Source: Methylopila jiangsuensis
Lineage (GTDB): Bacteria; Pseudomonadota; Alphaproteobacteria; Rhizobiales; Methylopilaceae
NCBI RefSeq assembly: GCF_027922305.1
Contig: NZ_BSFK01000016.1
Coordinates: 802,565-866,564 of the forward strand
Direction of reading: 5' to 3'
DNA: 64,000 bases
In this document: piece by piece, positions 220-23,197 of the stretch
Layout of the letters: every line of letters begins with the position of its first letter
Numbering within the stretch: position 1 is the first letter of the stretch
The notes under the pieces: generated by a model
The model's input: the letters and a program-made list of their open reading frames with translations, nothing else
Told to the model about the DNA's origin: nothing
Database searches by the model: none
Translations under genes and position numbers: made by a program

Positions 220-690
<471 letters not shown>

Positions 691-2308
691 CGCCACGATA
701 TCCGGAGCGAGGAAGCTGATGCGGACCAGACGGGTCATGTAGGACGCGGTGAGGTTCTCCTCCCGTGCGACGTCGTCGATGCTCGCCCGGTCGTCGATCA
801 GGCGGCTCCGGACGATCTGGGCGCGCGCCACGAGGCGGATCAGGCTGGCGTCGGCGGGCGCCTCTTCGGCCAGGCCGTCGATCACGAAGCGAAGTTCGTT
901 CCCGCGCCGCTTCAATCGCGCCGGGACAGAGATGGTGGTCAAGTCTTCGTCCAGGCGATTCGGGATGGGGTGGGTGGCGGCCGAGCCTTCCGGGTCGGCC
1001 AGCCAAGCCTGCAGCCCGGTCAGCCCGATCGTCAGGTCGACCCTGTCCTGATGCACGTCGATGCGCGGAACGAAGGCCAGCAGCGCGGTGCGGACGTCGG
1101 GCGTTCCCAGCGCCGGCCAGCGCGCCGCGGCTTCTTGGCCAAGTTGGGTCAGCCGACGCTGGTCGCTGGCGCCGCGATCCGTTGACGAGCTCGCGTCCAT
1201 GGTCGAGGCTGGGTCGGCGAGCATCCGCCCTACGCGGTCCCGCACCAGTTGCTCCAACGCCGGCGCCGGGAGGCGCAGGCCTTGGGTGTCCGTCCTCTTC
1301 CCGCTGACGAGGTGATGGGACACGTAGTACCGATAGCGCATGCCCTTCTTGACCGCGTGGCTGGGCGTCAGCCGTTTGCCCGCGGCGTCATAGACGAGGC
1401 CAGCGAGCAGGCTCGGTTCGGCGGCCGCGGTTCCGGTCGTCCGCTCGACCCGATTGTCGGCGAGGACTTTCTGCGCCTCTGCGAACAGCACCTCGTCCAC
1501 GATCGCCGCGTGCTCGCCAGGATAGACCTCGGCCTTATGCACGATGTCGCCGCGGTAAATCCGGTTGGAGAGCATCAGATAGAGCGCGCCCCGTGAGAAC
1601 GCCTTGCCGCCATAAGGCGAACCGTCGGCCGCCGTCCTGCACTTGCTGATCACGCCGGAGGCGTCGAGCTCCGCCTTCAGCTCCCGAACCGACCCTAGCT
1701 CTACGTAGCGGCGGAAGATGTTTCGGACGGTCGCGGCTTCCGCCTCGTTGACCACGAGCTTGCGGTCGCGGACGTCGTAGCCGAGCGGCGGCTGGCCGCC
1801 CATCCACATACCTTTCTTCTTCGAGGCCGCGATCTTGTCGCGGATGCGCTCGCCCGTGACCTCGCGCTCGAACTGCGCGAAAGACAGCAGCACGTTCAAC
1901 GTCAACCGTCCCATGCTGGTCGTGGTGTTGAACGCCTGGGTCACCGAGACGAAAGAGACGCGATGCTTATCGAACAGCTCGACGATGCGTGCGAAGTCGC
2001 TGAGCGCGCGGGTCAGGCGATCGACCTTGTAGACCACCACCACATCGATCTCGCCCGCCGCAATGTCCGCGAGCAGGCGCTTGAGCGCCGGCCTCTCCAT
2101 CGAGCCGCCCGAGAAGCCGCCATCGTCATAGAATGCGGGTGACAACATCCAGCCTTCATGACGTTGCGAGGCGACGTACGCCTCGCAGGCCTCGCGCTGG
2201 GCGTCGAGCGAGTTGAACTCCTGTTCGAGCCCCTCCTCGCTGGATTTGCGCGTATAGACCGCGCAGCGCAGCTTCGCGTGCCCTACCACTCTCGCGGCAG
2301 GCTTGCGG

Positions 2309-2893
2309 CTAGCCATGCTGGAGCTCCTCACGCGAAGGAGCTGCGGTCGGCGGGACGCCGTCGGGCGGCACGGCTTGCGGCGTGCGCTGTCGCACGAGGC
2401 CGAAGAAGCGCGGGCCGGACCAGTGCGCGCCTGTGATCGTTTTGGCGATGGGCGTCAGGGAGGCGTAGGTCTTGCCGTCGTATTCAAAGCCCTCCTCGAT
2501 CACCGTCACGGTGTGCGTGCGGCCGCGCCATTCCCGAACGAGCCTCGCGCCGGGTCGAAAGCGTGCGCGAGGTTCAGGCCGGTCAGGATCCTCCTCCCGG
2601 AGCTCCTTCGTCTGGGCAGCGATCCGCCTGAGCGCCGCCTTGGACAACCCGCCATGCTCCCGCTCTTGCAGACGATACGCCAGCGCCCGAAGAACAAGGT
2701 CCCGGCTGAGCTGCGGAGGATCCGTGCGGAACAGGCGCCGCCATTCTTGACGGAGTCCGGAGGCGTCGAGATGCTCCAGCTCAACAAGACGCCGCTGGAG
2801 AGCGGATTGAGATCCGCCCTCAGGATGCTCACCGTCGCGACCACACGCCACGGCTCCTCCGGCTTTGATCGCGTAAGCGTCGCTCACCGTCAT
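2309..2893 (-). CDS. DUF2924 family protein
   Basis: The 194-residue protein has the hallmarks of DUF2924: LRQEWRRLFRTDPPQLSRDLVLRALAYRLQE in pieces near the centre, then RPGARLVREWRGRTHTVTV and GFEYDGKTYASLTPIAKTITGAHWSGPRFF. The function is unknown, but the family lies almost always directly upstream of serine recombinases in Alphaproteobacteria. An accessory or directionality role in recombination is a reasonable inference. The start overlaps the stop of the DUF3489 gene by 4 bases, and the end overlaps the recombinase start by 8 bases, so the three genes form one translationally coupled operon. Confidence 0.88.
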   Translation of the reverse strand: MTVSDAYAIKAGGAVACGRDGEHPEGGSQSALQRRLVELEHLDASGLRQEWRRLFRTDPPQLSRDLVLRALAYRLQEREHGGLSKAALRRIAAQTKELREEDPDRPEPRARFRPGARLVREWRGRTHTVTVIEEGFEYDGKTYASLTPIAKTITGAHWSGPRFFGLVRQRTPQAVPPDGVPPTAAPSREELQHG

Positions 2894-3429
2894 GCCGCCG
2901 GGGCTTGCGTCGACGTGGCGATGGAGTATCGCCGGTCGCCGCCGTCGAGCTTATTGGACGACACTTCAAAGCCCCTCTTGCGAAGACCGCTCAAGACCGC
3001 CCGGGTCGTATGCGGCAGCCAACCGGTGGCGTCGATCAAGTCGTTGAGGCTGGCGCCGCTCGGACGCGCCAGGAGATGGATCACGACCGCCTGCTTGGTT
3101 CCCGCCCTGACGGCGTCGATCTGCGGGGCGACATGCGCGGTTTCCTCTTCTTTCGCCTCCTCGCACTCGGCGCCGATCACTGCATAACCACCCTTGGTGA
3201 TCTTCAGCCCGACAGGTTTGCCGTTCTCATCCTGTCGCCAGTGCGGCTGACGGCGCTGAACGATCAGCTCTGTCAGCAGCTGCTTGCGCAGCAACGCCGC
3301 GATCGTCCGTGCGACCGACGGGTGGGCGTCGGTCAGCACGACGAGGCCGTCGTCGCGCTGCGAGGCGGCGGACAGCAGGACAAGCTGAGCGTCGGTGAGC
3401 TTGGACGTGGGTGACGTGACGTTCGACAT
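2890..3429 (-). CDS. DUF3489 family protein
   Basis: The 179-residue protein has two winged-helix-like parts: an N-terminal LTDAQLVLLSAASQRDDG segment with DAHPSVARTIAALLRKQLL, and a C-terminal LLARPSGASLNDLIDATGW followed by HTTRAVLSGLRKRGFEV, typical of DUF3489. It probably binds DNA and may regulate or assist the recombinase; that role is inferred. I chose ATG 3429 because AAGGAGA lies 8-10 bases upstream. A longer frame to 3513 has no such site. It is the first gene of the recombinase operon. Confidence 0.87.
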   Translation of the reverse strand: MSNVTSPTSKLTDAQLVLLSAASQRDDGLVVLTDAHPSVARTIAALLRKQLLTELIVQRRQPHWRQDENGKPVGLKITKGGYAVIGAECEEAKEEETAHVAPQIDAVRAGTKQAVVIHLLARPSGASLNDLIDATGWLPHTTRAVLSGLRKRGFEVSSNKLDGGDRRYSIATSTQAPAA

Positions 3430-3533
3430 GAAGTGTTCTCCTTCGCGATCCGGCGACGATTGCCGCCGCCACTGACGCGACCCCGCACGCGCGGGGCAGG
3501 AGAAGGACGCCAAGGAGCCCCGAGAGGCGTCGG

Positions 3534-3773
3534 CTAGGTCGACTTCGACTTGCCCTTCAAGAAATCCTCGCCGACGCGCCGCAGCAGGCTCGCGCTCTGC
3601 AGCAGGTGGTTCGCCTCATAAAGCAGCGGTTCGATCTCGTAGGCGATGTCCATCGCCTCGTCGAAGCGCCCCAGCTTCAACAACTCCTGCGCCCCTCGCG
3701 CCCGCTCGCCGCTCTCCACCACACGACGAACCATCGCGCTCAGGCAGGCCTTTCCAAGCTTCTTCGACGTCAC
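3534..3773 (-). CDS. Small hypothetical protein (79 aa)
   Basis: The family is not recognised. The frame is open up to 3944, but a GTG at 3773 with GGAGG 8 bases upstream is the best start. It gives a 79-residue, largely helical soluble protein with segments RVVESGERARGAQELLKLGRFDEAMDIAYEI in parts and a basic tail KGKSKST. There is no membrane segment or cysteine motif. It lies on the same strand between the recombinase operon and the YaaC-like gene. The tetratricopeptide-like feel of the middle part is an impression only. Confidence 0.55.
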   Translation of the reverse strand: MTSKKLGKACLSAMVRRVVESGERARGAQELLKLGRFDEAMDIAYEIEPLLYEANHLLQSASLLRRVGEDFLKGKSKST

Positions 3774-4051
3774 GCCCAAACCTCCGTCAGCGACTTCGGC
3801 ACTGACGCTCCGTTCGGCAGGGAAGTGAAGTCCTTTCTGGCGACGCGGGGGCAGGAGCATCGTTCGCCCCCGATCTGACGACGCGTTGGTTTCGCGGTAC
3901 CAGGAAGAGCTACAGCGGCTCAGACCCCTTACCGACGTTCGCAAGGTCTGCTTGCAAAGGCGTCAACTCACTCGGATCTCGTTGCCCGAGGCCCCTTCGA
4001 CACCAACTCGCAGAATAAGCTCCGGCGAGTAGCAACCCACGTTTTGAAGAT

Positions 4052-5095
4052 CTACGAGAACATGCCGTGACGAACGCCAGCGGGAGAAATTTCATAGCCT
4101 GTAATTTCAGCGGCGATCTCATCCAAAAATTGATTTCGTGCAACTTTCACGAACTCATAAATAATCCAGTTTCGATTTCCTCGAAGTAAGTGTATTAATT
4201 CCTTCGGTTTGTAGCGAGCAATCTCACTTAATCGGTGCATTGACAGGAACATCAAAGTGATATTGTATCGGCGAATCATGGCGTATGCTGCGAGATTTCT
4301 CTTAAGATACCAGAGTGGCTTGTCGGAAGTGATGTAATGGACGTCCAGTCGAATTGTGCGATGGAAATTCTTTAGCGCGTCGATGTCGGCGTTGGTGGGG
4401 CGTCGCGCGCCGGACCAAGCAAACTTGGCCACACTTTCCAGCCGGGTAGTGCCTTGGTACGCGCTTGTCTGAAACGTATTTGGAATTGTGCCGAGCGTTT
4501 GGCCATGCGTGTGTTCATCGGGCAGGTCCGCCCGAAACCAAGCTTGCCCATTCTGATGGACATACCTAGGGTTTCTAATGCTAAGAAATAGCTCTCCTCG
4601 AGAATAGCTAACGGCGACGGCACGATGTATGAATGGCAAATTACTTAAGATATCGCCCAAGGTGTACTGCTTTTGAGCCTCAATTTCGCCAAGATGCTGG
4701 ATCAATGCAGGAACGAATCCGCCATTCCTTATCTTGATACCCTCGTTATCGATTCGGATTCTTGGGCGCACTCCCGTCCTTAGGTCAAGACCGGTAACGC
4801 CATGATATTCTGTATACGGAACATTGTTTGATTGTAAAAGCGCTTTGGCTGCATTGAGGAACGCATAATAAAGAGGAAGAGGCGCAGAATGTACAGGAAG
4901 GTCGCGAGCGGAATCAAAAAACGCCTTAGCTTGCTCCCAATAGATGCAGGCATCTTCTTTTCCTTGTTGTCTCAACCATAGTGAAACGAATTCCCAAGGG
5001 CTAGATGCGATAATTCTTTTTTCGTCAAAGTCTGGTGAAATCGTTGCGCGCGGGAAGCGAACGACCTTGTCGGAAATCCTGATCCTTTCCGCCAT
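4052..5095 (-). CDS. YaaC-like protein
   Basis: The 347-residue protein resembles the YaaC family: SSPWEFVSLWLRQQ, then ACIYWEQAKAFFDSA, PLPLYYAFLNAAKALL and a YHGVTGLDLRT segment, matching the family's PW, QA, YYxxLNxAKA and HG signatures. The biochemical function is unknown. This gene is visibly more AT-rich than its flanks (for example TTGATTGTAAAAGCG and GAATTCCCAAGGG stretches), pointing to a separate origin within the island. It lies downstream of, and in the same direction as, the helicase-nuclease gene, 255 bases away. Its place beside Gabija-like genes suggests, but does not prove, a defence link. Confidence 0.75.
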   Translation of the reverse strand: MAERIRISDKVVRFPRATISPDFDEKRIIASSPWEFVSLWLRQQGKEDACIYWEQAKAFFDSARDLPVHSAPLPLYYAFLNAAKALLQSNNVPYTEYHGVTGLDLRTGVRPRIRIDNEGIKIRNGGFVPALIQHLGEIEAQKQYTLGDILSNLPFIHRAVAVSYSRGELFLSIRNPRYVHQNGQAWFRADLPDEHTHGQTLGTIPNTFQTSAYQGTTRLESVAKFAWSGARRPTNADIDALKNFHRTIRLDVHYITSDKPLWYLKRNLAAYAMIRRYNITLMFLSMHRLSEIARYKPKELIHLLRGNRNWIIYEFVKVARNQFLDEIAAEITGYEISPAGVRHGMFS

Positions 5096-5350
5096 GCGGA
5101 GCTCCTAATCCAAGGGCGGCTAGCCCAGTCTCGTTCGCTTATTCGGAGCCATCAGCCTATCGGCCTGCGCTATGATAATTACGAAGATTGAATCTCCGCT
5201 TTGCGAGAGCTGTGCAATGCCCGCACTTGGCGCCAAGCGGCTTCCGGCGACTGGCTGCGCCTGACCCATGTCGGCCTTTCGATAGTTATCCGGCGAGCGA
5301 CCGGGTGGGGCTCTTAGGCGAACTTGGGAATGTCAGGTTAGCGGCGCTAG
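5096..5350. other. Intergenic region between helicase and YaaC genes
   Basis: The 255 bases separate the stop of the helicase-nuclease gene from the start of the YaaC-like gene, both on the minus strand. I see no recognisable gene, strong hairpin or repeat. It should carry the YaaC gene's own promoter. Confidence 0.4.
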
Positions 5351-7879
5351 CTATGCGCCTTTGCCTGCCGCCTTTTCAAAAGTGACGAGGTAGGTGGTCT
5401 TGATCCCGTCCGGCGTCAGCTTCGCCTTCTGCAGCGCCGCTTCGCAACGCTCTCTGAGCGCGTCGGCCTTACCCGGACTCGCGACCAAGTCGCTTAGAAC
5501 ACCCCGCAAGGCGCCCACCAACTTCGTAATTTCACCCAGCCGCAGGGCGTAGCTCCCCGCCGTGCTCGCCTTCTTGTCCGCAACAGCCTCGGGCAAGGCC
5601 GAGACCCGTACCGCCTCTCGACCAGGGTAGACGCCCTTGAACCAATTTTCGGCTTCAAGCAGTTGAGCGTGATCGCTCTTATAGAGCGGATTGTCCTCTT
5701 TCTTGCTTTTCGCCTCGATCACGAAGTCGAATGAGGCACCCGTGCGCCAGAGCACATCCGGTCCCTTGTTGTACACCTTCTCAGGGCGCTCGGCCTCGAA
5801 ACCAAGGTATGAGCCCAGGTTAGCCAGCGCCTCTTCGTAACGCGCCGCCGACGCCTCCGGCACCAGCTCGGTCACCGCCTCGTCAAAGTCGGCAAGCAAA
5901 GCGCCGCGAAGGTCATACTCGAGCAGCCGGGCCACAATCGCCTTCGACTGCTTGCCGGGAATTGGCCGCGGCACGTAGGGCGGCCGAACCTTGGGTGGCG
6001 AATGGTTGTTGCTGATGGAGAAGGCGCTGGTTTGCAGCTTCTGACCGCGGTCCTCGTCATCCATCTGATAGGCGATGCGGGCGGCGGAGGCCGATAGCCA
6101 GGCACGGCGCTGGCCGTCCGACTTGAGTTCGTCGTCTCCGATTAGGTTCTCCAGTGTCTGAAGCGCCTTCTCATACTGACCGAGCCGCTGGAGCTTGAAC
6201 GCTTTGCGCTCGCCGCCGGCGACCCGAAGCGCCAGGGTGTTGACGGGGACGGCGTGCGCCGCTTCGGCCAATTCCGACGCGTGGTACGCTACCCAATCGA
6301 CGTCGCGGTTCAGGCACTTCATCACCGTCTCGTGGACCTCCTTCACCGTCGTGACTGTCCCGCTCATTTCTTGGCCCATGGTGAGTTGCACTCGCGTACT
6401 GGCGGTCAAAAAGGCGAGATTGCTCTTGCGGCCGATCCAGCCAACCAGGCGGCTCCCGATCAGCATCACCGCGCAATAATCCCCGCCGCCTCGCGTCCCG
6501 CGCCCAATGCCCTGCTCGATTCGCTGAGCCAGCAGCGAGCTGACGGCGGAGTCCGCGACGACATTCACGCGAAAGACGTCATAGTCCGAGGTGCCCTGGG
6601 GCAGGTTGTCCATGACTAGGAACCGGCAGGCGTTGCCGGCGAGATCGATCCCGTCATAACGGTTGGCTAGAACCACCGGGCCATAGCTCGCACCGGCCTG
6701 CATGGCCGCTATCTGCTCTCCCACGGCCTTGGCGTTGCTGGGATACTCTGCAACATCCTTCCACTGCTCGGCCGCCGGACCCGATGGGGTCAGGATCGCA
6801 GCGCCACGCTTATTCTCCGCCAGCTTTACTGCAATGTGCTTGACCATGGGGGTGATCGGAGTCCCCGCGAGCTTCATCAGCTCGGGTATGAGGATCATCC
6901 GCTCGCCGACGCCGGCCAGGGAAGCTGACGTGATGGGCTTACCGACCGCGTCCGCGGACGCACCGAAGGTTCGCACGATCTCGCTATCGTCAGCGATCGT
7001 CGCCGACATATAGATGCGGCGGGTGCAATCCTCGAAGGTCGGCAACAGATCCACCGGCGGGAAGATCGGCGTGATGGTCACCGACTTGCGGCTAAACAGG
7101 CAATGGGAGACCGCCAAGTTGTCCCGTAGGAACGGCCACACGAAAGGGTCGATCTTCTCGACAACCCCGGCGAGATATTGCTCAACCTCGGCAAGTTTGC
7201 GCTGCCAGGCCCAGCTTGGCACTTCCATCACGCCAAAGTCTCTGCCGCTCGTCACGTCGGCGAAGGAGCCGCTGCGTCCGACCTCTTTGAACGCGGTGCG
7301 GAAACGACCCGCGAGATCGGCGTAGACGTCCTCATGGTCCTTGGCTGAGATCGAGAGGCTGAAGGCTTCTCGCACCGAGGAAAGCGCGACATGCGCGTCG
7401 TCGAGAATAATGGTGCCGGCTTTGACGATGTCCTGGCCGGAGTTGCGAACACCGAATTTGCTACGGCCGTTGAACAAGGTCTCGTAAGACCCGACGAGGA
7501 CGCTTTTCCCATCGTAGAAGTCGCCTGGCAGCGGCTGCTTTTTGACGTAGGGAACGGCGGAGATACCGTACTCCTTGCTCTTCGCAATCACCTGTTCGAC
7601 GAGCTGATTAGTGGGCGCAAGGTAGATGACCGGCTCACCGAGCTCGTTCATCACTGACTGCGCCATCAAGAGCGCGACGAGGGTCTTGCCGCCTCCGGTA
7701 TGCAGTTTGACCACCACGTCGCGGTCTGTACGGCGGACGAACCACGCATCGAGTACTTCCGCCTGGCTGGCATAGAGGTCGTTGATGCCGGGCGGTTTTG
7801 GCAGCCCATTGAAGATTTCACGGGGATTGATGGGCTTCGGCTTAGCCTTGCTTTCCCGAAGTTTTTTGAAATCTACCAT
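5351..7879 (-). CDS. SF2 DEAD/DEAH helicase with probable C-terminal PD-(D/E)XK nuclease
   Basis: The 842-residue protein begins with a superfamily 2 helicase core: Walker A LHTGGGKT (about residues 59-66), LAPTNQLVEQV (motif Ia), DEAH-type box ILDDAHVALSS (about 160), YMSATIADD (motif III) and QGIGRGTRGGG (motif VI). It should be an ATP-driven nucleic-acid translocase. Near residues 700-735 the pattern GPDVLWR, then FDFVIEAKSKK, fits a PD-(D/E)XK nuclease core (D, then E-x-K). It is divergent from the Gabija-like pair across 146 bases. Helicase plus nuclease logic resembles Hachiman (HamA nuclease, HamB helicase) in one chain, but I cannot show homology. An anti-phage role is likely from context. 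Confidence 0.78.
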   Translation of the reverse strand: MVDFKKLRESKAKPKPINPREIFNGLPKPPGINDLYASQAEVLDAWFVRRTDRDVVVKLHTGGGKTLVALLMAQSVMNELGEPVIYLAPTNQLVEQVIAKSKEYGISAVPYVKKQPLPGDFYDGKSVLVGSYETLFNGRSKFGVRNSGQDIVKAGTIILDDAHVALSSVREAFSLSISAKDHEDVYADLAGRFRTAFKEVGRSGSFADVTSGRDFGVMEVPSWAWQRKLAEVEQYLAGVVEKIDPFVWPFLRDNLAVSHCLFSRKSVTITPIFPPVDLLPTFEDCTRRIYMSATIADDSEIVRTFGASADAVGKPITSASLAGVGERMILIPELMKLAGTPITPMVKHIAVKLAENKRGAAILTPSGPAAEQWKDVAEYPSNAKAVGEQIAAMQAGASYGPVVLANRYDGIDLAGNACRFLVMDNLPQGTSDYDVFRVNVVADSAVSSLLAQRIEQGIGRGTRGGGDYCAVMLIGSRLVGWIGRKSNLAFLTASTRVQLTMGQEMSGTVTTVKEVHETVMKCLNRDVDWVAYHASELAEAAHAVPVNTLALRVAGGERKAFKLQRLGQYEKALQTLENLIGDDELKSDGQRRAWLSASAARIAYQMDDEDRGQKLQTSAFSISNNHSPPKVRPPYVPRPIPGKQSKAIVARLLEYDLRGALLADFDEAVTELVPEASAARYEEALANLGSYLGFEAERPEKVYNKGPDVLWRTGASFDFVIEAKSKKEDNPLYKSDHAQLLEAENWFKGVYPGREAVRVSALPEAVADKKASTAGSYALRLGEITKLVGALRGVLSDLVASPGKADALRERCEAALQKAKLTPDGIKTTYLVTFEKAAGKGA

Positions 7880-8025
7880 TTACCCCCGCAGTGCGTCTGG
7901 TGACGGCAAGTCCCCGGTCAGATTATCCTAGCTGTCCGAGCTTGCCATGAGAGTCTGGACGGACGGCATGACGACGATCGGGCGCGACGAGACGATTAGA
8001 TAGGAAGTACGACCCCGGGGCGAAC
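7880..8025. promoter_or_regulatory. Divergent promoter region, helicase-nuclease / Gabija-like pair
   Basis: These 146 bases separate two divergently transcribed defence-type genes and must hold the promoters for both. I see no long palindrome that would identify an operator. The shared control region is the main sign that the two units may be co-regulated. Confidence 0.45.
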
Positions 8026-9783
8026 ATGGCGTCAGCGATAATCCGACACCTCGAAATTAGAGGCTTCCGGGGCGTGCGCGGTTTGAGCTGGTCTCCCCAT
8101 CCCGAACTGAACGTCATTGTAGGGGCGGCCGATGGCGGCAAGTCGACCCTTCTGGAAGCCATCGCCCTGCTGTTTTCGCCGGCCCCCAACTATGGGTTGT
8201 CTGAGTTCGACTACCATGGGCGCAACCTCGACGCCGGGTTCTCTATCCAAGCGGTCCTGTCCTTCAGCGATATCAGCATCATGCGCGACGAGGGCTTTCC
8301 GGCACCGCCGATGCAGGGCTGGCTCAATGGCAAGCTGATCGACTTGCCGGACGAGGCGGGCGCGGAAGCCGTGCTGGTCTGCCGTCTCACGGGCACGCCC
8401 GATCAGGAGCCGCACTACGACGTCGTCGGCGCCGGTGGGGAGATTCGCGCCCCGTTTAGCCGCGCCATGCGCCGTCGCATCGGGTTGGCCCGGCTTGGTG
8501 TCGCGGATCGCGGCGACCGGGACATCCGCCTCGTTCAAGGCGGCGCCCTGGATCGATACCTTCAGGGCCAAGAGGTCCGTCAGACCGTCCTTCAAGCGGT
8601 GATGAAAACACCGCTGCACGACCAGCTCGACGCCGGCCCGAAGGCGGCGCTGAAGGCGATCAGCGACGGCTTCGAGACCCGCAATCTTCCCCATCCGGTC
8701 AGACTCGGCCTGGTCGGAACGCCAGGCGTCTCTTTGGCCGCGAGCGTCGGCCTGACGGTCGGTGCGGATGATCCCACCTCGTTGCCGCTTTCAGCCTGGG
8801 GCACCGGCACGCGCAGGCTCGCGGCATTGGAGATTTCGACGCTCGGCGTCAGCGCCGAGGCAATTGCGGTCATTGACGAGCCGGAGACGGGGCTGGAGCC
8901 GTACCGCCAGCGGGTTTTTATTCGCGATCTCGCCGCCCATGGCCGACAAGCCTTCGTCACCACGCACGCCCCAGCCGTTCTCGCGCAGGCGGCCAAGGCG
9001 GCGTCACAGACTTGGCGGATCGGCGACGCGCCGCCTCCCACTCTGCCGTTCGAGGAAAGCACGGTCGAAGAGCCGGCATCCCACGCCCTGTTCGTTATGG
9101 CCGGCGCGGAGTTGACCTTGATCGCCGCGACCCAGGCTGAAGCGCTGTTCGCCAAGCTGCCGGTGGTTTGCGAAGGAGCGACCGAAGTGGGCTTCGCGAC
9201 TCGGATGCTGGAGCACCGCTTCGGCGAGGGCTTCTCATGCCGCGGAATCTACTGCCTCGACGCAGGCGGTCACTTCAAGGCGCTCCCCATCTGCAAGGCG
9301 TTACTCGCCGCGGGCTTTCCCTTGGCTGCGGTTGTCGATGACGAGGGCAAGAGGAGCGGGAGCTGGGCCACGATCTCCCAGGCGGCGAACCTGCTGCGGT
9401 GGGACAATGGGGCGTGTTTGGAGACGGCGGTTCTATCGGCGATGCCCGATGCCCAGCTTCAAGAAGTCCACCTTTGGGCTGAACAAGTCACCCACAGAAA
9501 CGCAGCCCACCAACTGGCGGAGATCCGCCGAGAGCTTGCTGCGGAGAAAGGCCTGTCGGCCGCCCAGATGTTCGCAGACGCAGGCCGAGATGCGTTTCTT
9601 GCGGCCGTACTCGCGAGCGCGTGCCCCAAGCCCGAGGCCAATAAGAAGCCGCGCGGGTGGTTCAAGAGCTTCGATGGGGGCTACCTCCTCGCGGATAAGC
9701 TCCTGGCGCTCAGCCCCGCGCCCGCCCTCATGGCGAAGGTGGAGGCCTTCCTTGCGGCCGTCGAGGCGGCCACAGCGCCGTGA
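8026..9783 (+). CDS. gajA: GajA-like OLD-family ATPase/TOPRIM nuclease
   Basis: The 585-residue protein has an N-terminal ABC-type ATPase with Walker A GAADGGKST (residues 33-41), Walker B AVIDEPETGLEP (D284, E285) and an H-loop FVTTHAP. A TOPRIM domain follows: VVCEGATEVGF with E383, then AVVDDEGKR near 437-440, and a later FKSFDGG lysine near 547. This is the layout of class 2 OLD nucleases. Length and spacing match GajA of the Gabija system (about 578 aa), a DNA endonuclease acting in phage defence. The next gene starts inside its stop codon (4-base overlap) and encodes the expected UvrD-like partner. The family call is solid; the Gabija name rests on the gene pair. Confidence 0.86.
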   Translation: MASAIIRHLEIRGFRGVRGLSWSPHPELNVIVGAADGGKSTLLEAIALLFSPAPNYGLSEFDYHGRNLDAGFSIQAVLSFSDISIMRDEGFPAPPMQGWLNGKLIDLPDEAGAEAVLVCRLTGTPDQEPHYDVVGAGGEIRAPFSRAMRRRIGLARLGVADRGDRDIRLVQGGALDRYLQGQEVRQTVLQAVMKTPLHDQLDAGPKAALKAISDGFETRNLPHPVRLGLVGTPGVSLAASVGLTVGADDPTSLPLSAWGTGTRRLAALEISTLGVSAEAIAVIDEPETGLEPYRQRVFIRDLAAHGRQAFVTTHAPAVLAQAAKAASQTWRIGDAPPPTLPFEESTVEEPASHALFVMAGAELTLIAATQAEALFAKLPVVCEGATEVGFATRMLEHRFGEGFSCRGIYCLDAGGHFKALPICKALLAAGFPLAAVVDDEGKRSGSWATISQAANLLRWDNGACLETAVLSAMPDAQLQEVHLWAEQVTHRNAAHQLAEIRRELAAEKGLSAAQMFADAGRDAFLAAVLASACPKPEANKKPRGWFKSFDGGYLLADKLLALSPAPALMAKVEAFLAAVEAATAP

Positions 9784-11258
9784 GCCGGTCGCTCGACGGA
9801 CTGCTCCATTCCGATGCGCCCTTGGTCGTGGTCGAGGCGGCGGCGGGTTGCGGCAAGACCTGGACAGCGGCGAAATTCGCCAAGGAGATGTCCGCGCGGC
9901 TCGACCATCAACGGGTGCTGTTGCTGTCCCACACCCACGGTGCCTGCGGTGAGTTCCACCGACGCTGCGTCGGTCCAGGCCTGCGTATCGACGTGGAGAC
10001 CTGTGACAGCTTCGCCCTGAAGGTCGTCGGACCTTACGCCGCCGCGCTAAGCCTGCCTTATCCCTTCGACCATCTGGTAGGTCGCTCCGAATTGCCATTC
10101 GAGACGATCCGCACGAAGGCGGCCGATTTAGTTCGGCGGTCGCCTACGGTCGCGCGCCTGATCAGCGCTCGGTATCCGGTGATCATTCTCGACGAACATC
10201 AGGACGCCAGCCTCACACAGCATGAGCTTGCGATGACTTTGATGGCGGTCGGCGGGTCGCGATTGCGGGTCTTTGGCGACCCCATGCAAGCGCTGCACAG
10301 CGGGATCGGAGTGCACTATGTCGACTGGGATGCGCTGTGGGCCAACTGTCGGGACCGGCGCGAACTCACAGAGCCGAAGCGATGGGACGAGGCTCCGGAA
10401 CTCGGCAAGTGGATCACCGCCGCCCGCACGGTCCTGAAAGCTGGCGGATCGGTTGGGCTGCACGACGCTCCCTCGGAAGTCCGGGTCCGCGCGGAGGCTG
10501 GTTTAGCAGGCCGCAAGAAGTTCAAGAACCCCCGACTGGCCGGAGAAATCCTGCACGCCTTCCTCGACGACGGACAGGGCCGGGCCGTCGTAATCGCTCA
10601 CCTGAGCGATATGGTGCGCGCCCTGGCTCAGGGTGCGAACTGGCGAGCCGGGGTGAATGAGGGGGCCGTGCTGGAATATCTCGACCGGCTTCTCGCGGAC
10701 GCAGAGGAAGAAGCGGCGACCGCCGCTAAGCTCGCGGCCGGATTTTTGACCTTCGCGACCGACATAGGGTCAGGCTTCCCGAAGGCATTGCGCGAGGCCA
10801 TCAGCAATCGGGCGGGCATCCAGCTCAATCGTAACCAGGCCGGGGCCAAGCAGTTGCCCTGGCTCCATGCGCTTGAGTTGATCTACGCCGACCCCAGCCA
10901 CCGCGGCCTCGCCGGGGCGATGGATCGGTTGGTCGCGAGTCCACCAGCCGGGTATCGCGTCCGCTTTGGCGATCACGCCGCAGCGCTTCGGGCGATTGGA
11001 CGGACCGACGATCCGCGCGGCCACCTTCATGCGCTGAGCCGGTTGCGCCGCCGTCGAAACTTGCCGCACCTGAGCACGAGCACAGTTCACAAAGCCAAAG
11101 GGCTTGAGTTTCGCCGCGTCCTGGTTTGTCCGGGCGACGCCCAGCAGTTTCCGGCGGGCGCGTATGGCGCGCGCCTGCTTTATGTCGCTATGAGCCGCGC
11201 CACCCATCAGTTGACCATTGTCACAGACTCTTCCTCGCCCATTGTCCATCTGGGTTAG
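9780..11258 (+). CDS. gajB: GajB-like UvrD-family helicase
   Basis: The 492-residue superfamily 1 helicase-type ATPase has Walker A EAAAGCGKT (about residues 19-27), Walker B VIILDEHQDAS, motif III VFGDPMQALHSG, motif V STVHKAKGLEF and motif VI LLYVAMSRATHQL. It starts at GTG 9780, overlapping the stop of the OLD nuclease gene by 4 bases, so the two are translationally coupled. GajB proteins are about 494 aa and have this motif set. In Gabija, GajB forms a complex with the GajA tetramer and responds to DNA ends or nucleotide depletion. The stop is TAG. Confidence 0.86.
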   Translation: MSRSLDGLLHSDAPLVVVEAAAGCGKTWTAAKFAKEMSARLDHQRVLLLSHTHGACGEFHRRCVGPGLRIDVETCDSFALKVVGPYAAALSLPYPFDHLVGRSELPFETIRTKAADLVRRSPTVARLISARYPVIILDEHQDASLTQHELAMTLMAVGGSRLRVFGDPMQALHSGIGVHYVDWDALWANCRDRRELTEPKRWDEAPELGKWITAARTVLKAGGSVGLHDAPSEVRVRAEAGLAGRKKFKNPRLAGEILHAFLDDGQGRAVVIAHLSDMVRALAQGANWRAGVNEGAVLEYLDRLLADAEEEAATAAKLAAGFLTFATDIGSGFPKALREAISNRAGIQLNRNQAGAKQLPWLHALELIYADPSHRGLAGAMDRLVASPPAGYRVRFGDHAAALRAIGRTDDPRGHLHALSRLRRRRNLPHLSTSTVHKAKGLEFRRVLVCPGDAQQFPAGAYGARLLYVAMSRATHQLTIVTDSSSPIVHLG

Positions 11259-11448
11259 CGTTTGAGGTGGTTTGGCAGCCGCCGAGACGAGGCCATGCGG
11301 CAACGGATGATGCCTTTAGCGCGTCAGGGCCAGCAATCAGCATAACCCAAAGCAGAATTGAGAAGATCCGCGTAGGGTCGGCTTCGGCCATTCAGAGAGC
11401 CTGCCGAACGGCCGCTAGTCGGCGTTGACCCAACTTCCGCTCATGACC

Positions 11449-12984
11449 GATTGCGTTGAAGAAGTCGGTTGTTCGACGACGCATGGGAGCAACTGGCCAG
11501 GCGGCGAGCGGCCTTTCGCCTTTTCAGGCCGGGATCGGGCTCGGCGCCGGGACCAACTTCGCCAGCTTCCTGAGGTTTTGGGCGGTGGCGGCGAGCAGGA
11601 ACTCGTCGCGGGCGCCGCATGGACCTCGAAGCCTTAGACGGTCGAGCCGCAGGATGCGCTTCAGGTGCGCGAACAGCATCTCGACCTTCTTCCGCTCGCG
11701 CCGGGAGGCGGCGTAGGCGTCGGTCTTCGCGATGTCCCTCGCCATGTCGCGAGCGCCCTCGTGGATCGAGCGAGGGATCTTCCGGGCCGGCGTGTTGGGG
11801 CAGCATTGCGGTTTAAGGGAGCAGGCGTCGCAGTCGAACTTGCTTGCGCGGTAGCGGATCATGCCGTCGTCGTCGACGAGCAGAGCTGAGCTTCGGTAGA
11901 CCCTCTGGCGGGGTCTCAGCTCCTTCCCGGCCGGGCAGGTGTAGAGGTCGCGGACGTGGTCATACGGGAAGTCCGAGCGGCTGAACGTGCCATCGGTCCG
12001 GGCGCTCTTGTCGAACACCGGGATGTGCGGCTCGATCCCGCGATCATGGACCAGCCAGGCGAGCATCTCGGCCGAGCCGTAGGCGCTGTCGGCGGCGAGC
12101 CGCTCGGGCCACAGCCCGAAGCGGTCCTGCGCTCGCTCAACCATCGTTTGCGCGGCGCCGACCTCGGCCTGCCGGATCGCGCGGCTGGGCTCGACGTCGA
12201 CGATCACCGCGTGGTCGAGGTCGATCAGGTAGTTGGTCGCGTAGGCGAAGAAGGCGTGGCCCTTGTGTGCGCCGGTCCACTGCGCGGCCGGATCCGACCG
12301 CGACACGAACTTCGGCCGGGTCTCGCTCGCCGCGCCCCAGGCCGCATCGTCAAGCGTGTCGAGGTACTCGCGGACTGAGCGCCGCGTCGCGGCCAACTCT
12401 TCCCAGTCGACCTCGTCCCTGCCGTCCGCCGAGCGCTGACGGTTGGCGTGGCCCGGATCAGGCTGGCGTCGACCGCGAAGCCGTCGCCGCCCACAAGCCC
12501 CTCAGCCATGCAGCGCCGGACGACCGTCTCGAACAGCTTGCGCAGCAGGTCGCTGTCGCGGAAGCGGCCATGGCGGTTCTTCGAGAAGGTCGAGTGGTCC
12601 GGCACATCGCCGTCGAGGCCGAGCCGGCAGAACCAGCGATAGGCGAGGTTCAGATGAACCTCCTCGCACAGTCGCCGCTCAGACCGGACGCCGAAGCAGT
12701 AACCGATCAGCAGCATCCGGATCAGCAACTCCGGGTCGATCGAAGGACGACCGGTCGAGCTGTAGAAGGGAGCCAGATCCCGCCGCACCTCAGACAGGTC
12801 GACGAAACGATCGATCGCCCTCAGCAGGTGGTCCTGCGGCACATGCCGCTCGAGAGAGAACTCATAGAACAGCGTCGCCTGGTCGACCTGCCGCTCGCCC
12901 ATCATCGCCGTCGCCCTCCGCCTGTAGGGCCTAGTGAATCAGCGGCGGCGTCACGCTTCAACGACGGAGTTTTTCAACGAAATC
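11449..12984 (-). mobile_element. IS1182-family insertion sequence
   Basis: The element is about 1.54 kb. The left end starts GATTGCGTTGAAGAAGTC, and the reverse complement of the right end reads GATTTCGTTGAAAAACTC, giving imperfect terminal inverted repeats. The tetranucleotide GACC flanks both ends (11,445-11,448 and 12,985-12,988), a likely 4-bp target duplication. It carries one transposase on the minus strand, broken by a frameshift. It separates the Gabija-like pair from the arsenic operon. The 190 bases before it (11,259-11,448) hold no gene. Confidence 0.85.
11524..12905 (-). pseudogene. IS1182-family transposase, frameshifted
   Basis: The N-terminal half (from ATG 12905) has the family's FSLERHVPQDHLLRAIDRF, GRPSIDPELLIRMLLIGY, EVHLNLAYRWFCRLGL and VPDHSTFSKNRHGRF. 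The C-terminal half continues in another frame with EYLDTLDDAAWGAA, then ADSAYGSAEMLAWL and the C-terminal RRERKKVEMLFAHLKRIL block (DDE-type transposase). The break lies near 12,445: after DASLIRA the frame runs off, whereas inserting one G would restore the expected ADANRQRS reading. This is a one-base deletion or a sequencing error, so the element is probably not autonomous. Confidence 0.88.
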
Positions 12985-13037
12985 GACCCTAAACCGACGT
13001 TGCTGGGGTCCGCAGATCGGCTGTGGGCGCGAACGAT

Positions 13038-14210
13038 CTAGCGCTTCTGAGCGAGTGCCGCTGCCACCAGCGCGTTCGCAGCAGCGACCACCGCAAGCAC
13101 CTTAAGCGTCATTCCTGGCCCAGCCTGAGCCATCACTAGCCCGGCGATGAACGGGGCGAGCGCCTGAACAACCAATTTGGGCGCGGCGAGCCGTCCCATC
13201 ACGACCGGGTAGCGGGCCGGACCGAACAGAGCGAGCGGGACCGTGCCGCGGGAGATCGACCATACGCCGTTCCCCGCGGCGTAAAGCACGACCGCGACGG
13301 CGGCGGGCCCGGCTCCGAGCGCGAGCAGGACCGTGCCGACCGAGACGAGCGCGCCCGCGCAGGCGAGCGTGGCGGTCGGATGCAGGCGGTCGCCGACCAG
13401 CATCTCGACGACGCGTGCGCCGACCTGCGATGGGCCGATCAGCGCCCCGACCGCGACGGCCGCCGCGAGCGCCATGCCCTGGTCCTGCAAGATCGTGAGC
13501 AGGTGAACCGAGACCGTCGTCTGGACCGCGCCGTTGGCCATCAAGATCGCCGCCAGCAGCAGGAACGTCCCTCGCTCACGCGACGACATCGTGCCGGCCC
13601 CGGCACTGTCGGTCGTAATCGGAGGCTTGGGGGCCTCCCGCGGCAGCAGCAGGAACAGCGCCGGGGCCATGACCAGCACCTGCGCGGCGGCGTAGGCGAA
13701 GCAGGCGCCGCGCCAGCCGACGTGCTCGACGGCGAGCGCCGAGAGCGGCCAGCAGACGGTACTGGCGAAGCCGCCGAACAGGGTGAGGTTGGTGATGGCG
13801 CGCCGGGCCGACGCCCCGAAGATCCGGCCGAGCGTCGAGAACGCCGCGTCGTAGAGCTCGGCGCCCATTCCGACGCCGAGCACGGCCCAGCCCAGCAGGT
13901 AACTCGCGAGGCCCGTTGATGAGCCGACCGCAGCGAGGCCCGCGCCCATCAGCAGCGAGCCCACGGCCATGGTCGGCCGCCCGCCGAAGCCGTCGATCAT
14001 ACGGCCGACGAACGGCGCGGCGATCCCGGAGCAGAGCAGCCCGATCGACCCACCGCCGACCACCCAGGCGAGCGGCCATCCGGTGTCGGCCGAGATCGGC
14101 GTCGCCAGCACCGCGAGCAGGTAGAAGCTCGAGCCCCACGAGACGATCTGCGCGATCCCGAGCAGCGGGACGGCGATCCTGCCGCCCGGCGGCGCCGAAG
14201 CCGTCTCCAC
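13038..14210 (-). CDS. MFS transporter of the ars operon (possibly ArsK-like)
   Basis: The 390-residue membrane protein has about 12 hydrophobic segments and major-facilitator features (VGRMIDGFGGRPTMAVG in loop 2-3). The GTG start follows the arsH stop by 3 bases, so it is the last gene of the arsR-acr3-arsC-arsH operon. Ars operons of Alphaproteobacteria can carry an MFS exporter such as ArsK (trivalent arsenicals, Sb) or, with a GAPDH partner, ArsJ. No GAPDH gene is present, so ArsJ is unlikely. The substrate is inferred only from context. Confidence 0.8.
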   Translation of the reverse strand: METASAPPGGRIAVPLLGIAQIVSWGSSFYLLAVLATPISADTGWPLAWVVGGGSIGLLCSGIAAPFVGRMIDGFGGRPTMAVGSLLMGAGLAAVGSSTGLASYLLGWAVLGVGMGAELYDAAFSTLGRIFGASARRAITNLTLFGGFASTVCWPLSALAVEHVGWRGACFAYAAAQVLVMAPALFLLLPREAPKPPITTDSAGAGTMSSRERGTFLLLAAILMANGAVQTTVSVHLLTILQDQGMALAAAVAVGALIGPSQVGARVVEMLVGDRLHPTATLACAGALVSVGTVLLALGAGPAAVAVVLYAAGNGVWSISRGTVPLALFGPARYPVVMGRLAAPKLVVQALAPFIAGLVMAQAGPGMTLKVLAVVAAANALVAAALAQKR

Positions 14211-14213
14211 GCC

Positions 14214-14924
14214 TCAGACGGCCTGCTTGAGGTTCACCCGCGCCTCGAGCGCCGCCGCGCTCTCCTTCCGCTCGCTGTAGCGGTCGGTGAGGTGGTCGGA
14301 AACGTCGCGCGTGAGGAGCGTGAACTTCACCAGCTCCTCCATCACGTCGACCACGCGCTCGTAATAGGGCGACGGCTTCATCCGGCCGTCCTCATCGAAC
14401 TCCTGGTAGGCCTTGGCGACGGATGACTGGTTGGGGATCGTCAGCATCCGCATCCAGCGGCCGAGCACCCGCATCTGGTTCACGGCGTTGAACGACTGCG
14501 AGCCGCCGGAGACCTGCATCACCGCGAGCGTGCGGCCCTGCGTGGGGCGGACGGAGCCGACCGAGAGCGGGATCCAGTCGATCAGCGACTTCATCACCCC
14601 GGTCATCGCGCCGTGCCGCTCGGGGCTCGTCCAGACCTGCGCCTCGGACCAGAGCGACAGCTCGCGCAGCTCCTGAACCTTGGGGTGATCCACGGGGCCG
14701 CCGTCCGGCAGCGGCAGGCCCGTTGGATCGAACACGCGCGTCTCGCAGCCGAGGCGTCTGAGCAGGCGCTCGGCCTCGAAGGTCAGCAGGCGGCTGTAGG
14801 AGACGGGCCGCAGCGAGCCGTAGAGCAGAAGGACCCGCGGCGGATGGGTCGAACGCGGACCGTGGAGCCGCGAAAGGTCGGTCGGGCGGAACGAGCTCTC
14901 GTCGAGGTTCGGCAGATCGCTCAC
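14214..14924 (-). CDS. arsH: ArsH, FMN-dependent organoarsenical oxidoreductase
   Basis: The 236-residue flavoprotein has the ArsH signature: [16 protein letters not shown] (phosphate loop for FMN), [40 protein letters not shown] in parts, and [20 protein letters not shown]. ArsH oxidises trivalent organoarsenicals and reduces flavin- or quinone-type substrates with NADPH. Length and motifs agree with full-length family members. It lies between arsC (23 bases upstream) and the MFS gene (3 bases downstream) on the minus strand. Confidence 0.95.
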
Positions 14925-14947
14925 GACTCCGCTCCCGCCTTCACGAC

Positions 14948-15340
14948 CTAGACGTCCTCCTTGGTGAAGTCGCCCGCGAGCGGCGCTGGCAGGATCTCCA
15001 GCACGACCTCCGACGGCCTGCAGAGCCGAACGCCGCGCGAGGTGAACACGAACGGGCGGTTGATCAGGATCGGGTGCTTGAGCATGGCGTCGAGGATCGC
15101 GTCGCCGGTGACCGACGGATCGCCGAGGCCGAGCTCCGCGAAGAGCGTTTCCTTCGCCCGGGCGGCCTCCCGCGGGGTCAGTTCGGCGGCGGCGAACGCC
15201 TTCGCCAACTCGTCGCGCGAAGGTGGCGCCTTAAGGTACTCGACGACGGTCGGCTCAACGCCCGCGGCCCGGATCATCGCTAGCGTGTTGCGGGACGTGC
15301 CGCAGGCGGGGTTGTGCCAGATGGTGACGGCCTCGGTCAT
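14948..15340 (-). CDS. arsC: Arsenate reductase ArsC (glutaredoxin-coupled type)
   Basis: The 130-residue protein has the ArsC thioredoxin-like fold signature [17 protein letters not shown] with catalytic Cys13, [11 protein letters not shown], and the C-terminal [23 protein letters not shown]. It reduces arsenate to arsenite with glutathione and glutaredoxin, supplying the substrate for the Acr3 pump encoded just upstream. The gap to the acr3 stop is 10 bases. The start is ATG 15340. Confidence 0.96.
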
Positions 15341-15350
15341 CGCGGCGTCC

Positions 15351-16406
15351 TCAGGAACGGGATTCGGGAGCGGCCGCGCGAACGCCGCGGGCCTCGTACC
15401 AGGGTTTTGAGCGGTTCACGATCCACACGACCGACAGCATGACGGGCACCTCGATCAGCACCCCCACGACGGTGGCGAGCGCGGCCCCGGACTTGAATCC
15501 GAACAGGCTGATGGCCGCGGCGACCGCGAGCTCGAAGAAGTTCGACGCCCCGATCAGCGCCGACGGGCCGGCAACGCAATGGGCCTCGCCCGAAGCCCTG
15601 TTCAGCAGGTAGGCGAGGCCGGAGTTGAAGTAGACCTGGATCAGGATCGGCACCGCCAGCAGGGCGATGACGAGCGGCTGGGCGACGATCTGCTCCCCCT
15701 GGAAGGCGAACAGCAGGACGAGCGTCGCGAGCAGGGCGACGAGCGAGAGCGGCTGGATCTTCGCCAGCAGGCGGTCGAGCGAGGCCTGTCCGCTAGATGC
15801 CAGAATCCGTCGGCGCAGCACCTGCGCCGCAATCACCGGCACGACGATGTAGAGGCCGACCGACAGGAGCAGCGTGTCCCAAGGCACGGAGATCGCCGAC
15901 AGGCCCAGCAGCAGGCCGACGAGCGGCGCGAAGGCGACGATCATGATCGCGTCGTTGACCGCCACCTGGCTCAGCGTGAACAGGGGGTCGCCCCTCGTCA
16001 GGTTCGACCACACGAACACCATCGCGGTGCAGGGGGCCGCGGCGAGCAGGATCAGCCCGGCGATGTAGCTGTCGATCTGGTCCGCGCGCAGCCAGGGCCG
16101 GAACAGCCAGCCGACGAACAGCCATCCGAGCAGCGCCATCGAGAACGGCTTGACCGCCCAGTTGACGAACAGCGTCACCGACACGCCCCGCCAGTGAGCC
16201 GCGACCTTACGCAGGGCGCCGAAGTCGACCTTCACGAGCATGGGGACGATCATCAGCCAGATGAGCGCCGCGACGGGCAGGTTCACGCTCGCGACCTCAA
16301 GCGAGCCGATCGCGTGGAAGATGCCCGGCGCGACGTAACCGAGCGCGACGCCGACCACGATGCAGAGAAAGACCCAGACGGTCAGGTAGCGCTCGAACAA
16401 CGACAC
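15351..16406 (-). CDS. acr3: Arsenite efflux permease Acr3
   Basis: The 351-residue, ten-segment membrane protein has Acr3 hallmarks: LPVAALIWLMIVPMLVKVDF, NWAVKPFSMALLGWLF, the AAPCTAMVFVWSNLTRGDP segment with the conserved transport cysteine, and QVAVNDAIM. It exports arsenite using the membrane potential. The frame is open far upstream, but the protein begins at GTG 16406, two bases after the arsR stop. The upstream part of the frame overlaps arsR in another frame and is spurious. It is coupled to arsR and followed by arsC. Confidence 0.95.
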   Translation of the reverse strand: MSLFERYLTVWVFLCIVVGVALGYVAPGIFHAIGSLEVASVNLPVAALIWLMIVPMLVKVDFGALRKVAAHWRGVSVTLFVNWAVKPFSMALLGWLFVGWLFRPWLRADQIDSYIAGLILLAAAPCTAMVFVWSNLTRGDPLFTLSQVAVNDAIMIVAFAPLVGLLLGLSAISVPWDTLLLSVGLYIVVPVIAAQVLRRRILASSGQASLDRLLAKIQPLSLVALLATLVLLFAFQGEQIVAQPLVIALLAVPILIQVYFNSGLAYLLNRASGEAHCVAGPSALIGASNFFELAVAAAISLFGFKSGAALATVVGVLIEVPVMLSVVWIVNRSKPWYEARGVRAAAPESRS

Positions 16407-16408
16407 GG

Positions 16409-16783
16409 TCAGGCCCTCGCGGCCGTATCGCAGCCGCAGCCCTTCTCGAGCTGCTCGAACACTGGCGCGCACACGTCGGGATGGCCCTTGCAGCAGTCCT
16501 CGAGCAGGTAGTTCACGAGGCCGCGCATGCCGTCGAAGTTGGCGGCGTAGAGGATCGAGCGCCCGTCGCGGACCCCGGTGATAAGCCCGGCGCGGGCGAG
16601 GATGGCGAGGTGGGTCGACAGCGTGTTCTGGAGGCAGCCGAGCGCCTCGGCGATCCCGCCCGCGGGCTGCGGCTCGGGGGCCGTCGTGACGAGGTGCTTG
16701 AAGATGCGGAGCCGCGTGGATTGGCCCAGCGCCGAGAGGGCGTCGAGGGCCGAGGCTTCGCGGTCGGTCGTGGAGTCGGGCAT
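16409..16783 (-). CDS. arsR: ArsR-family arsenic-responsive repressor
   Basis: The 124-residue winged-helix repressor contains ALSALGQSTRLRIFKHLV, then GGIAEALGCLQNTLSTHLAIL (recognition helix) and the wing GVRDGRSILYAANF. Cysteines in LEDCCKGHPDVCAP and the tail EKGCGCD are candidates for As(III) binding. ATG 16783 is chosen for its GGAGG at the right distance. It should repress its own operon and probably the divergent permease gene, releasing DNA on binding arsenite. A palindrome lies 35-54 bases upstream of the start. Confidence 0.94.
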   Translation of the reverse strand: MPDSTTDREASALDALSALGQSTRLRIFKHLVTTAPEPQPAGGIAEALGCLQNTLSTHLAILARAGLITGVRDGRSILYAANFDGMRGLVNYLLEDCCKGHPDVCAPVFEQLEKGCGCDTAARA

Positions 16784-16817
16784 GTCGCCTCCGTTGATGG
16801 GAGGCATTTGTATCGAA

Positions 16818-16837
16818 ATATCGATGAGTGTCGATAT
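16818..16837. promoter_or_regulatory. Probable ArsR operator
   Basis: A perfect inverted repeat, ATATCGA - 6 bases - TCGATAT, lies in the 204-base gap between arsR and the divergent permease gene. A nearby TATCGA half-site at 16,811 extends it. Position and symmetry fit an ArsR-family site overlapping the arsR promoter. No binding data. Confidence 0.65.
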
Positions 16838-16987
16838 CTTGGGACCCCAAACAGCCTCGACGAGGATCTTTCGAGGCCATGGCCATGCAAGCGAAAGCGC
16901 TAGCATAGGACCCGGGAACGATTGTGTGATTTGGACACCTCGCGCGATCGGACTGCGGCTGCGGCAACTGACATGGGAGGAGCTGGA

Positions 16988-17964: not shown

Positions 17965-18127
17965 AGGGCGCAACGCCGGGTGGCCTGCGAGTGGGCGACG
18001 GCTCGCCGCACGCGCGGCGAAGGTCTCTCCACCAGAGCGGAGCGCTATATGCGGCAACCGTCCTTCGTGTCTCTAACTCCGGAGTTGGCCAGGGCGACCG
18101 ACAAGCCGAGGGGCGGGTCGGTCCCCG
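17965..18127. other. Convergent intergenic region
   Basis: These 163 bases lie between the plus-strand permease pseudogene and the minus-strand MFS gene. No gene or clear terminator hairpin is visible. Confidence 0.35.
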
Positions 18128-19291: not shown

Positions 19292-19357
19292 CTGGCCATG
19301 GGAATGCGATCGAGCCAGGCGGCGCCTCTCGTTTGAGGCGCGACCTATGCCGCGACT

Positions 19358-19387
19358 GCTTCAATCATTCAAGCGATTGATTGAAGC
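19358..19387. promoter_or_regulatory. Palindromic operator for the ArsR-rhodanese regulator
   Basis: The perfect 10-base arms GCTTCAATCA and TGATTGAAGC are separated by 10 bases (arms 19,358-19,367 and 19,378-19,387). The site lies between the divergent MFS gene and the arsR-rhodanese gene, 25 bases before the latter's start. ArsR-family regulators with a TTGATTGAA-like core bind such repeats, so this is likely the autoregulatory site. Confidence 0.7.
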
Positions 19388-23188: not shown

Positions 23189-23197
23189 CCGGACGGC

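Follow-up and report, generated by a model that had tools for sequence, protein, structure and literature searches.

We analyzed a 64,000-nucleotide stretch of the Methylopila jiangsuensis genome (contig NZ_BSFK01000016.1, positions 802,565 to 866,564), hereafter called the window, with a focus on its positions 3534-11258. This segment contains a gajA-gajB pair of the Gabija defense type and, divergent from it, a gene coding for an 842-amino-acid (aa) helicase-nuclease identified below as Hna, followed on the latter's strand by a yaaC-like gene and a gene for a 79-aa protein (Table 1). The gajA and gajB open reading frames (ORFs) overlap by 4 bases, 146 bases separate hna from gajA, and hna and yaaC are arranged in tandem with a gap of 255 bases. 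All ORFs reported in an earlier reading made from the DNA alone, hereafter the sequence-only reading, were found again at the same coordinates. The four larger ones are not chance ORFs, as shown by PADLOC matches of GajA (6.8e-69), GajB (6.6e-49) and the helicase-nuclease (model PDC-S28, 1.3e-264), and by the Pfam match of YaaC (1.5e-40). The 79-aa gene is the end part of a 136-aa ORF that matched no curated family in Pfam and PADLOC scans, the best hit being DUF5588 with an E value of 0.045, below that family's cut-off. The sequence-only reading had proposed that these genes may form a composite defense module. Our analysis makes it very probable that the segment is part of a recombinase-bearing, tRNA-adjacent island in which Hna and Gabija are independent systems, yaaC is an orphan gene, and the gene for the 79-aa protein is associated with the recombinase unit.

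Model and structure matches identify the 842-aa protein as Hna, the helicase-nuclease abortive infection protein, which is a known one-gene phage defense system. Two PADLOC PDC-S28 models matched it nearly end to end (1.3e-264 and 3.3e-158; residues 1-836 of 842). A search of Protein Data Bank (PDB) sequences with phmmer returned one strong relative, 10UJ/9YHN/9YKJ (6.4e-103, residues 1-763). According to the available parts of the source, 10UJ and 9YKJ are the deposited monomer and dimer structures of Sinorhizobium meliloti Hna (Hooper et al. 2026, PMC13381803); 9YHN is labelled Hna Monomer in the fold library. We located S. meliloti hna on pSymA (L160:2345-4882, 845 aa). In a PADLOC scan of its product the same two PDC-S28 models ranked first, over nearly the whole length, and its identity to the window protein was 31% over 763 residues (tblastn) or 29.3% over the multiple alignment. 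The shared PADLOC models, the 10UJ match and this identity argue that PDC-S28 and Hna are one family, of which the window protein is a member. The equation of PDC-S28, which is only the name of a phage defense candidate in the 2023 release of PADLOC, with Hna was concluded here from the present model and structure matches and not from any paper.

The window protein and S. meliloti Hna (SMa2245) are alike in length (842 and 845 aa), superfamily 2 (SF2) motifs, the C-terminal PD-(D/E)XK nuclease with its catalytic E and K, homology across window residues 1-763 and the lack of a recurring partner gene. They differ in that they are 29% identical, belong to different clades and carry different dimer-loop motifs. 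Among 86 Hna sequences, window included, the helicase motifs are well kept: GKT in 84, both Asp residues of DDxH in 85 and the GR of motif VI in 86. The original description of Hna is said, in papers that cite it, to be that of Sather et al. in Cell Host Microbe in 2023. The fusion of helicase and nuclease, which the sequence-only reading had taken for an undescribed layout, is thus that of a known protein. Its resemblance to Hachiman did not hold either. Hachiman (HamAB) pairs helicase and nuclease activities as Hna does, but in two proteins, HamA and HamB, according to the available parts of PMC12278908. We dropped a Hachiman-like identity on architecture, the window protein being a single chain, and on score (HamB, 1.4e-5 versus 1.3e-264 for PDC-S28). 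Matches to window Hna were found in 238 plasmid records, and the Ti plasmid pTiC58 carries, close to repABC, a relative 68% identical to it (L103:8001-10511).

The nuclease domain was examined with a structural model of Hna residues 540-842, built from 63 sequences (mean predicted local distance difference test [pLDDT] score of 95.0). With Foldseek at E ≤ 0.001, only two solved structures matched this model, the Hna monomer 9yhn (1.3e-15) and the Hna dimer (1.2e-8). The next matches, with E values above 0.004, were O-GlcNAc transferases, presumably because of shared helical repeats. Further down the ranking came the PD-(D/E)XK enzymes Nt.BspD6I (rank 8) and FokI (rank 29). The best match had a template modeling (TM) score to the query of 0.58 and a large root mean square deviation; modest TM-scores with such deviations suggest that the placement of the domain differs or is flexible. 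The motifs GPDVLW and IEAKSK lie at residues 706-711 and 721-726, and the 86 sequences conserve E682 (84), D708 (86), E722 (84), K724 (85) and Q739 (85). In an 88-sequence alignment including S. meliloti Hna, the nuclease residue D is present in 88, E in 86 and K in 87. In the phmmer alignment to 10UJ, K724 of the window protein pairs with K729 of S. meliloti Hna, whose replacement by Ala abolishes the exonuclease activity (PMC13381803, available parts). The conserved residues, the equivalence of K724 and K729 and the Hna fold match together argue that the assignment of a nuclease to the helicase C terminus by the sequence-only reading was correct.

In the available parts of the same paper, S. 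meliloti Hna is described as a 3'-5' single-stranded DNA exonuclease that is inhibited by ATP, lacks an iron-sulfur cluster and has a reduced Arch domain (PMC13381803). ATP binding favors an auto-inhibited homodimer, which a phage single-stranded DNA-binding protein destabilizes, switching on the nuclease and leading to abortive infection; residues T30, D31 and P34 of the dimer loop were mutated in that work. The hna gene alone restores resistance in S. meliloti, as stated in the available parts of PMC12445080. By homology, window Hna would have the same core nuclease activity.

A FastTree tree of 88 Hna sequences, some of them near duplicates, was rooted at the midpoint and contains a clade of 31 (the window protein, the pTiC58 relative and others), a clade of 54 to which S. 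meliloti Hna belongs, and three sequences outside both. At the mapped dimer contact, the 31 sequences of the window clade carry a loop of the K-P-x-G-I-N-D-L-Y type, with K28 in 28, P29 in 21, G31 in 24, I32 in 23, N33 in 23, D34 in 28, L35 in 29 and Y36 in 25 of them, the alignment across this short loop being uncertain. On the S. meliloti side, position 34 is P in 29 and Y in 17 of the 54 sequences. T30 is conserved in neither clade, and the dimer-loop residues vary within the S. meliloti clade as well. We regard as mildly new the placement of window Hna in a clade that conserves a different motif at this loop.

By its profile and motif matches, the neighboring pair is a divergent Gabija, in agreement with the sequence-only reading. 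In Gabija, the GajA nuclease acts together with the GajB helicase. Window GajA matched Pfam PF13175 (ATPase, 8.6e-14) and PF20469 (TOPRIM, 1.1e-5), and the PADLOC GajA model covers residues 5-562 of 585; window GajB has Pfam UvrD matches, and the PADLOC GajB model covers residues 16-485 of 492. With Gabija, the pair thus shares the OLD-type ATPase/TOPRIM protein, the UvrD-like helicase, the overlapping genes and near whole-length PADLOC matches. It differs as a divergent branch: a solved GajB was found by phmmer at 3.6e-8, over residues 96-192 of window GajB, and no solved GajA was found at E ≤ 0.01. From its family membership, the window pair would function as a Gabija system.

The yaaC-like gene stands apart in base composition. 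Its GC content and GC content at third codon positions (GC3) are 47.7 and 48.6%, compared with 61.4 and 76.9% for hna, 66.0 and 78.2% for gajA, 64.8 and 74.8% for gajB and 66.7 and 85.1% for the island's recombinase gene. The family is rare: it was found in one of 385 genomes of the class (the window's own), in two of 61 relatives (own included) and, with the Pfam model, in 4 of 398 genomes of the phylum. PADLOC gave no match for window YaaC. Its predicted structure (pLDDT 88.4, predicted TM-score 0.89) matched nothing at E ≤ 0.001 among PDB or BFVD structures. A HEPN RNase identity was considered and rejected, since none of the four R-x4-6-H strings has both residues invariant in the family alignment, and in view of these two results we claim no fold for YaaC. 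Viral contigs searched with the single window sequence gave no relative, nor did a phage collection searched with a P1-like YaaC. Among plasmids, the Methylobacterium plasmid pMaqPC3 carries a YaaC 84% identical to that of the window amid recombinase and transposition genes, and no Hna or Gabija relatives were found in the 21 kb examined there, with 10 kb on each side.

YaaC occurs in 87 plasmid records, of which 71 are from Escherichia coli. In one of these, the IncY P1-like plasmid NZ_CP031232 (L098:5893-7590), YaaC and a nucleoside-deoxyribosyltransferase-like (NDT-like) gene take the place that res, mod and an IS5 have in P1, between mat and lxc. In this comparison of one E. coli record with P1, similarity ends at the end of mat and returns at the start of lxc. 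The NDT-like gene matched PF05014 at 1.8e-4, below the family cut-off. It follows YaaC in six of 14 viral loci (two pairs being near duplicates) and in three of seven plasmid records inspected, and a search with its product returned 86 plasmid records, 80 of them covering at least 80% of the protein. No significant similarity to this gene was detected in the window after yaaC. We found no paper on YaaC family proteins or on YaaC with nucleoside 2-deoxyribosyltransferase, and a literature search for YaaC with defense and phage gave none on YaaC by title among the matches listed.

These data bear on whether the yaaC-like gene is itself an undescribed defense or anti-defense gene, a third item of cargo, as would be compatible with the island reading. 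This idea is favored by the P1-like phage-plasmid in which a YaaC relative and the NDT-like gene fill the slot of the type III restriction-modification genes, by the relatives on plasmids and viral contigs and by the rare, patchy distribution in genomes. Against it stand the lack of a PADLOC match, of an NDT-like partner beside the window copy and of any fold match at the threshold used. We consider the idea possible but rather unlikely. For the YaaC-NDT pair, which looks like an undescribed defense-type cargo cassette, a defense role is a guess from position. The window YaaC would represent a stand-alone branch; we infer that its gene arrived on its own and that it is a subunit of neither Hna nor Gabija.

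A second explanation, which we hold to be very unlikely, is a new two-gene system made up of Hna and YaaC, in which YaaC would be a regulator, sensor or extra effector. Their tandem arrangement on one strand, 255 bases apart, fits such a system. It was confronted with other Hna loci, collected by a profile scan of bacterial and archaeal genome contigs that yielded at least 351 relatives, of which 80 were kept, and complemented with five loci from sampled genomes of the class. Of these 85 loci, some of them near duplicates, 53 had 5 kb or more on both sides of the gene and 67 had 2 kb or more. With phmmer searches of ORFs of at least 60 aa (E ≤ 1e-3), no relative of window YaaC, the 136-aa ORF, GajA or GajB was found in any of the 85. 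Conversely, 22 other YaaC loci (seven plasmid records, that of pMaqPC3 among them, 14 viral contigs and one genome) contained no Hna, GajA or GajB (tblastn, E ≤ 1e-3). A 30-kb stretch around S. meliloti hna, with only 2.3 kb on one side, likewise held no relatives of YaaC, GajA or GajB. The GC3 values of yaaC and hna, 48.6 versus 76.9%, and the ability of S. meliloti Hna to act alone (PMC12445080, available parts) also argue against a two-gene system.

The divergent position of hna, 146 bases from gajA, might suggest an extended Gabija that includes the helicase-nuclease as a further subunit, but this is so improbable that it can be set aside: among 385 class genomes, Hna (E ≤ 1e-60) was found in six and window-type GajA (E ≤ 1e-20) in five, with both only in the window's own genome at these cut-offs, window-type GajA and GajB were absent from the 85 other Hna loci, and GajA and GajB queries from one sister species gave only three weak phmmer matches there (E values of 4e-5 to 2e-4).

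The genes next to hna vary over the 86 loci, window included, and the neighborhoods reveal no obligate partner. The most recurrent neighbors were type I restriction-modification-like clusters, named by eye, in eight and seven loci, and the shared neighborhood of six Legionella loci. In a search for a protein partner, clustering over the 86 loci gave only these type I-like clusters, mobile genes, generic families and the Legionella set. When ten neighbors of five close Hna relatives were scanned with PADLOC (E ≤ 1e-10), other defense neighbors appeared for three of the five: HmaC and a PDC-M28C-like gene at L008, SIR2-APAZ at L020, and LmuA and LmuB at L088. One neighbor at L008 and one at L009 gave no match at this threshold, and for another at L009 the sole match was to a TnsB transposition model. 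The absent co-localization in the loci examined, in both search directions, and the varied Hna neighbors led us to reject the composite Hna-YaaC-Gabija module put forward by the sequence-only reading.

The surroundings of the segment support the island reading (Table 1). Two copies of a 367-base direct repeat, 76% identical, lie at 304-670 and 43694-44060 and probably mark the limits of either a single 43-kb island or two elements in tandem. Between them lie a DNA methylase gene and the Wadjet set. Hna, Gabija and Wadjet are found in one stretch, and the sequence-only reading was right about the defense context. Between the defense blocks, positions 13038-26000 code for an MFS transporter, an ArsH-like FMN reductase, ArsC, an ArsR-type regulator domain, a chromate transporter and a heavy-metal P-type ATPase.

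Table 1. Features of the segment and of its surroundings in the window
Feature	Position	Strand	Remarks
79-aa gene	3534-3773	-	GTG start; end part of a 136-aa ORF with TTG start, 3534-3944
YaaC-like gene	4052-5095	-	347 aa; Pfam YaaC, 1.5e-40
hna (PADLOC PDC-S28), SF2/DinG-like helicase with C-terminal PD-(D/E)XK nuclease	5351-7879	-	842 aa
Hna nuclease core, about residues 678-780	5540-5848	-	E682, D708, E722, K724, Q739
K-P-x-G-I-N-D-L-Y type loop, Hna residues 28-36	7772-7798	-	At the mapped S. meliloti dimer contact
gajA, OLD-type ATPase with TOPRIM	8026-9783	+	585 aa; Walker A at residue 33, EGATE at 383, DDEG at 438
gajB, UvrD-like superfamily 1 (SF1) helicase	9780-11258	+	492 aa; GCGKT at residue 23, LDEHQ at residue 137
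tRNA-Ser(cga)	220-309	+	Left edge of the island
Left copy of the direct repeat	304-670	.	Covers tRNA 3' end, spacer and recombinase 3' end
Large serine recombinase (island mobility gene)	583-2331	-	Resolvase, 3.2e-38; Recombinase, 7.2e-12
DUF2924 gene, recombinase unit	2309-2893	-	2.4e-48
DUF3489 gene, recombinase unit	2890-3513	-	9.6e-22
Probable insertion-sequence copy	11448-12985	-	Sister genome G390 has a copy of 94.7% identity
Wadjet jetA-jetB-jetC-jetD, complete-looking set	27069-34112	-	Same stretch as Hna and Gabija
Right copy of the direct repeat, with recombinase 3'-end remnant	43694-44060	.	Probable right end of the island
Core gene, right flank	44832-45695		Found in 13 of 13 genus genomes

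The block at 583-3773, from the recombinase gene through the DUF2924 and DUF3489 genes to the 79-aa gene, has nucleotide similarity in all four sister-species loci compared, all of which have tRNA-Ser or tRNA-Ala close by. In all four, the similarity ends at about window position 3839, the insertion-sequence copy of G390 apart. Relatives of the 79-aa protein were found in seven of 61 related genomes (own included), all of the same genus; the six other than the window's own gave matches of 56-80% identity, two of them partial, and four of the six were compared at the locus level. This genus-only spread and the similarity of the recombinase unit running through the gene ruled it out as a defense part. 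By its distribution, it belongs with the recombinase unit rather than with the defense genes.

Sister species carry the same tRNA-adjacent unit with different defense cargo. Next to the unit, G387 (L114:10013-18350) has genes for a short prokaryotic Argonaute with TIR-APAZ, for a Gabija other than that of the window and for a cytosine methylase. G385 (L113:12210-19393) has IetA-like and LmuA-like genes in this place. Of ten cargo ORFs scanned in G387, G385 and G392, seven had PADLOC matches; the three without came from G385 (two) and G392 (its single scanned ORF).

We thus interpret the locus as an ordinary defense island on a probable mobile element, and not as a new combined system. The island would collect defense genes and would have brought Hna, Gabija and YaaC together as separate cargo rather than as one machine, which would explain why they are adjacent.

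Several points weigh against this interpretation or limit its reach. The tandem hna-yaaC arrangement and the 146-base divergence of hna and gajA make shared control possible. The co-occurrence test relied on single-sequence phmmer searches, with at least 5 kb on both sides in only 53 of the 85 loci. At L007, whose Hna is the closest relative among the matches listed (90%), neither of the two neighbors scanned had a PADLOC match. An empty site of the putative island was not found in five sister regions around the right-flank core gene; tRNA-Ser(gct) lies near this gene in four of them, and the fifth (L135) has only tRNA-Thr. A phmmer search with window GajA found no solved GajA at E ≤ 0.01, which is the reason for calling the window Gabija divergent. 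Lastly, T30, D31 and P34 of S. meliloti Hna align with P30, G31 and D34 of window Hna. As all three dimer-loop residues differ, the published autoinhibition may not carry over to the window protein, and the same dimer contact is not safe to infer.

A false lead is thereby removed, the striking helicase-nuclease being a published system. The locus illustrates how such arrangements arise, through a recombinase-bearing island whose defense cargo differs between sister species. It also leaves two modest leads, the YaaC(-NDT) cassette that sits where P1 has its restriction genes and the second Hna clade with a loop motif of its own. Taken jointly, they lead us to propose, quite tentatively, that the YaaC family may be undescribed defense or counter-defense cargo and that the second Hna clade may be restrained and triggered differently. 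The loop motif of this clade is directly comparable with the published S. meliloti mechanism.

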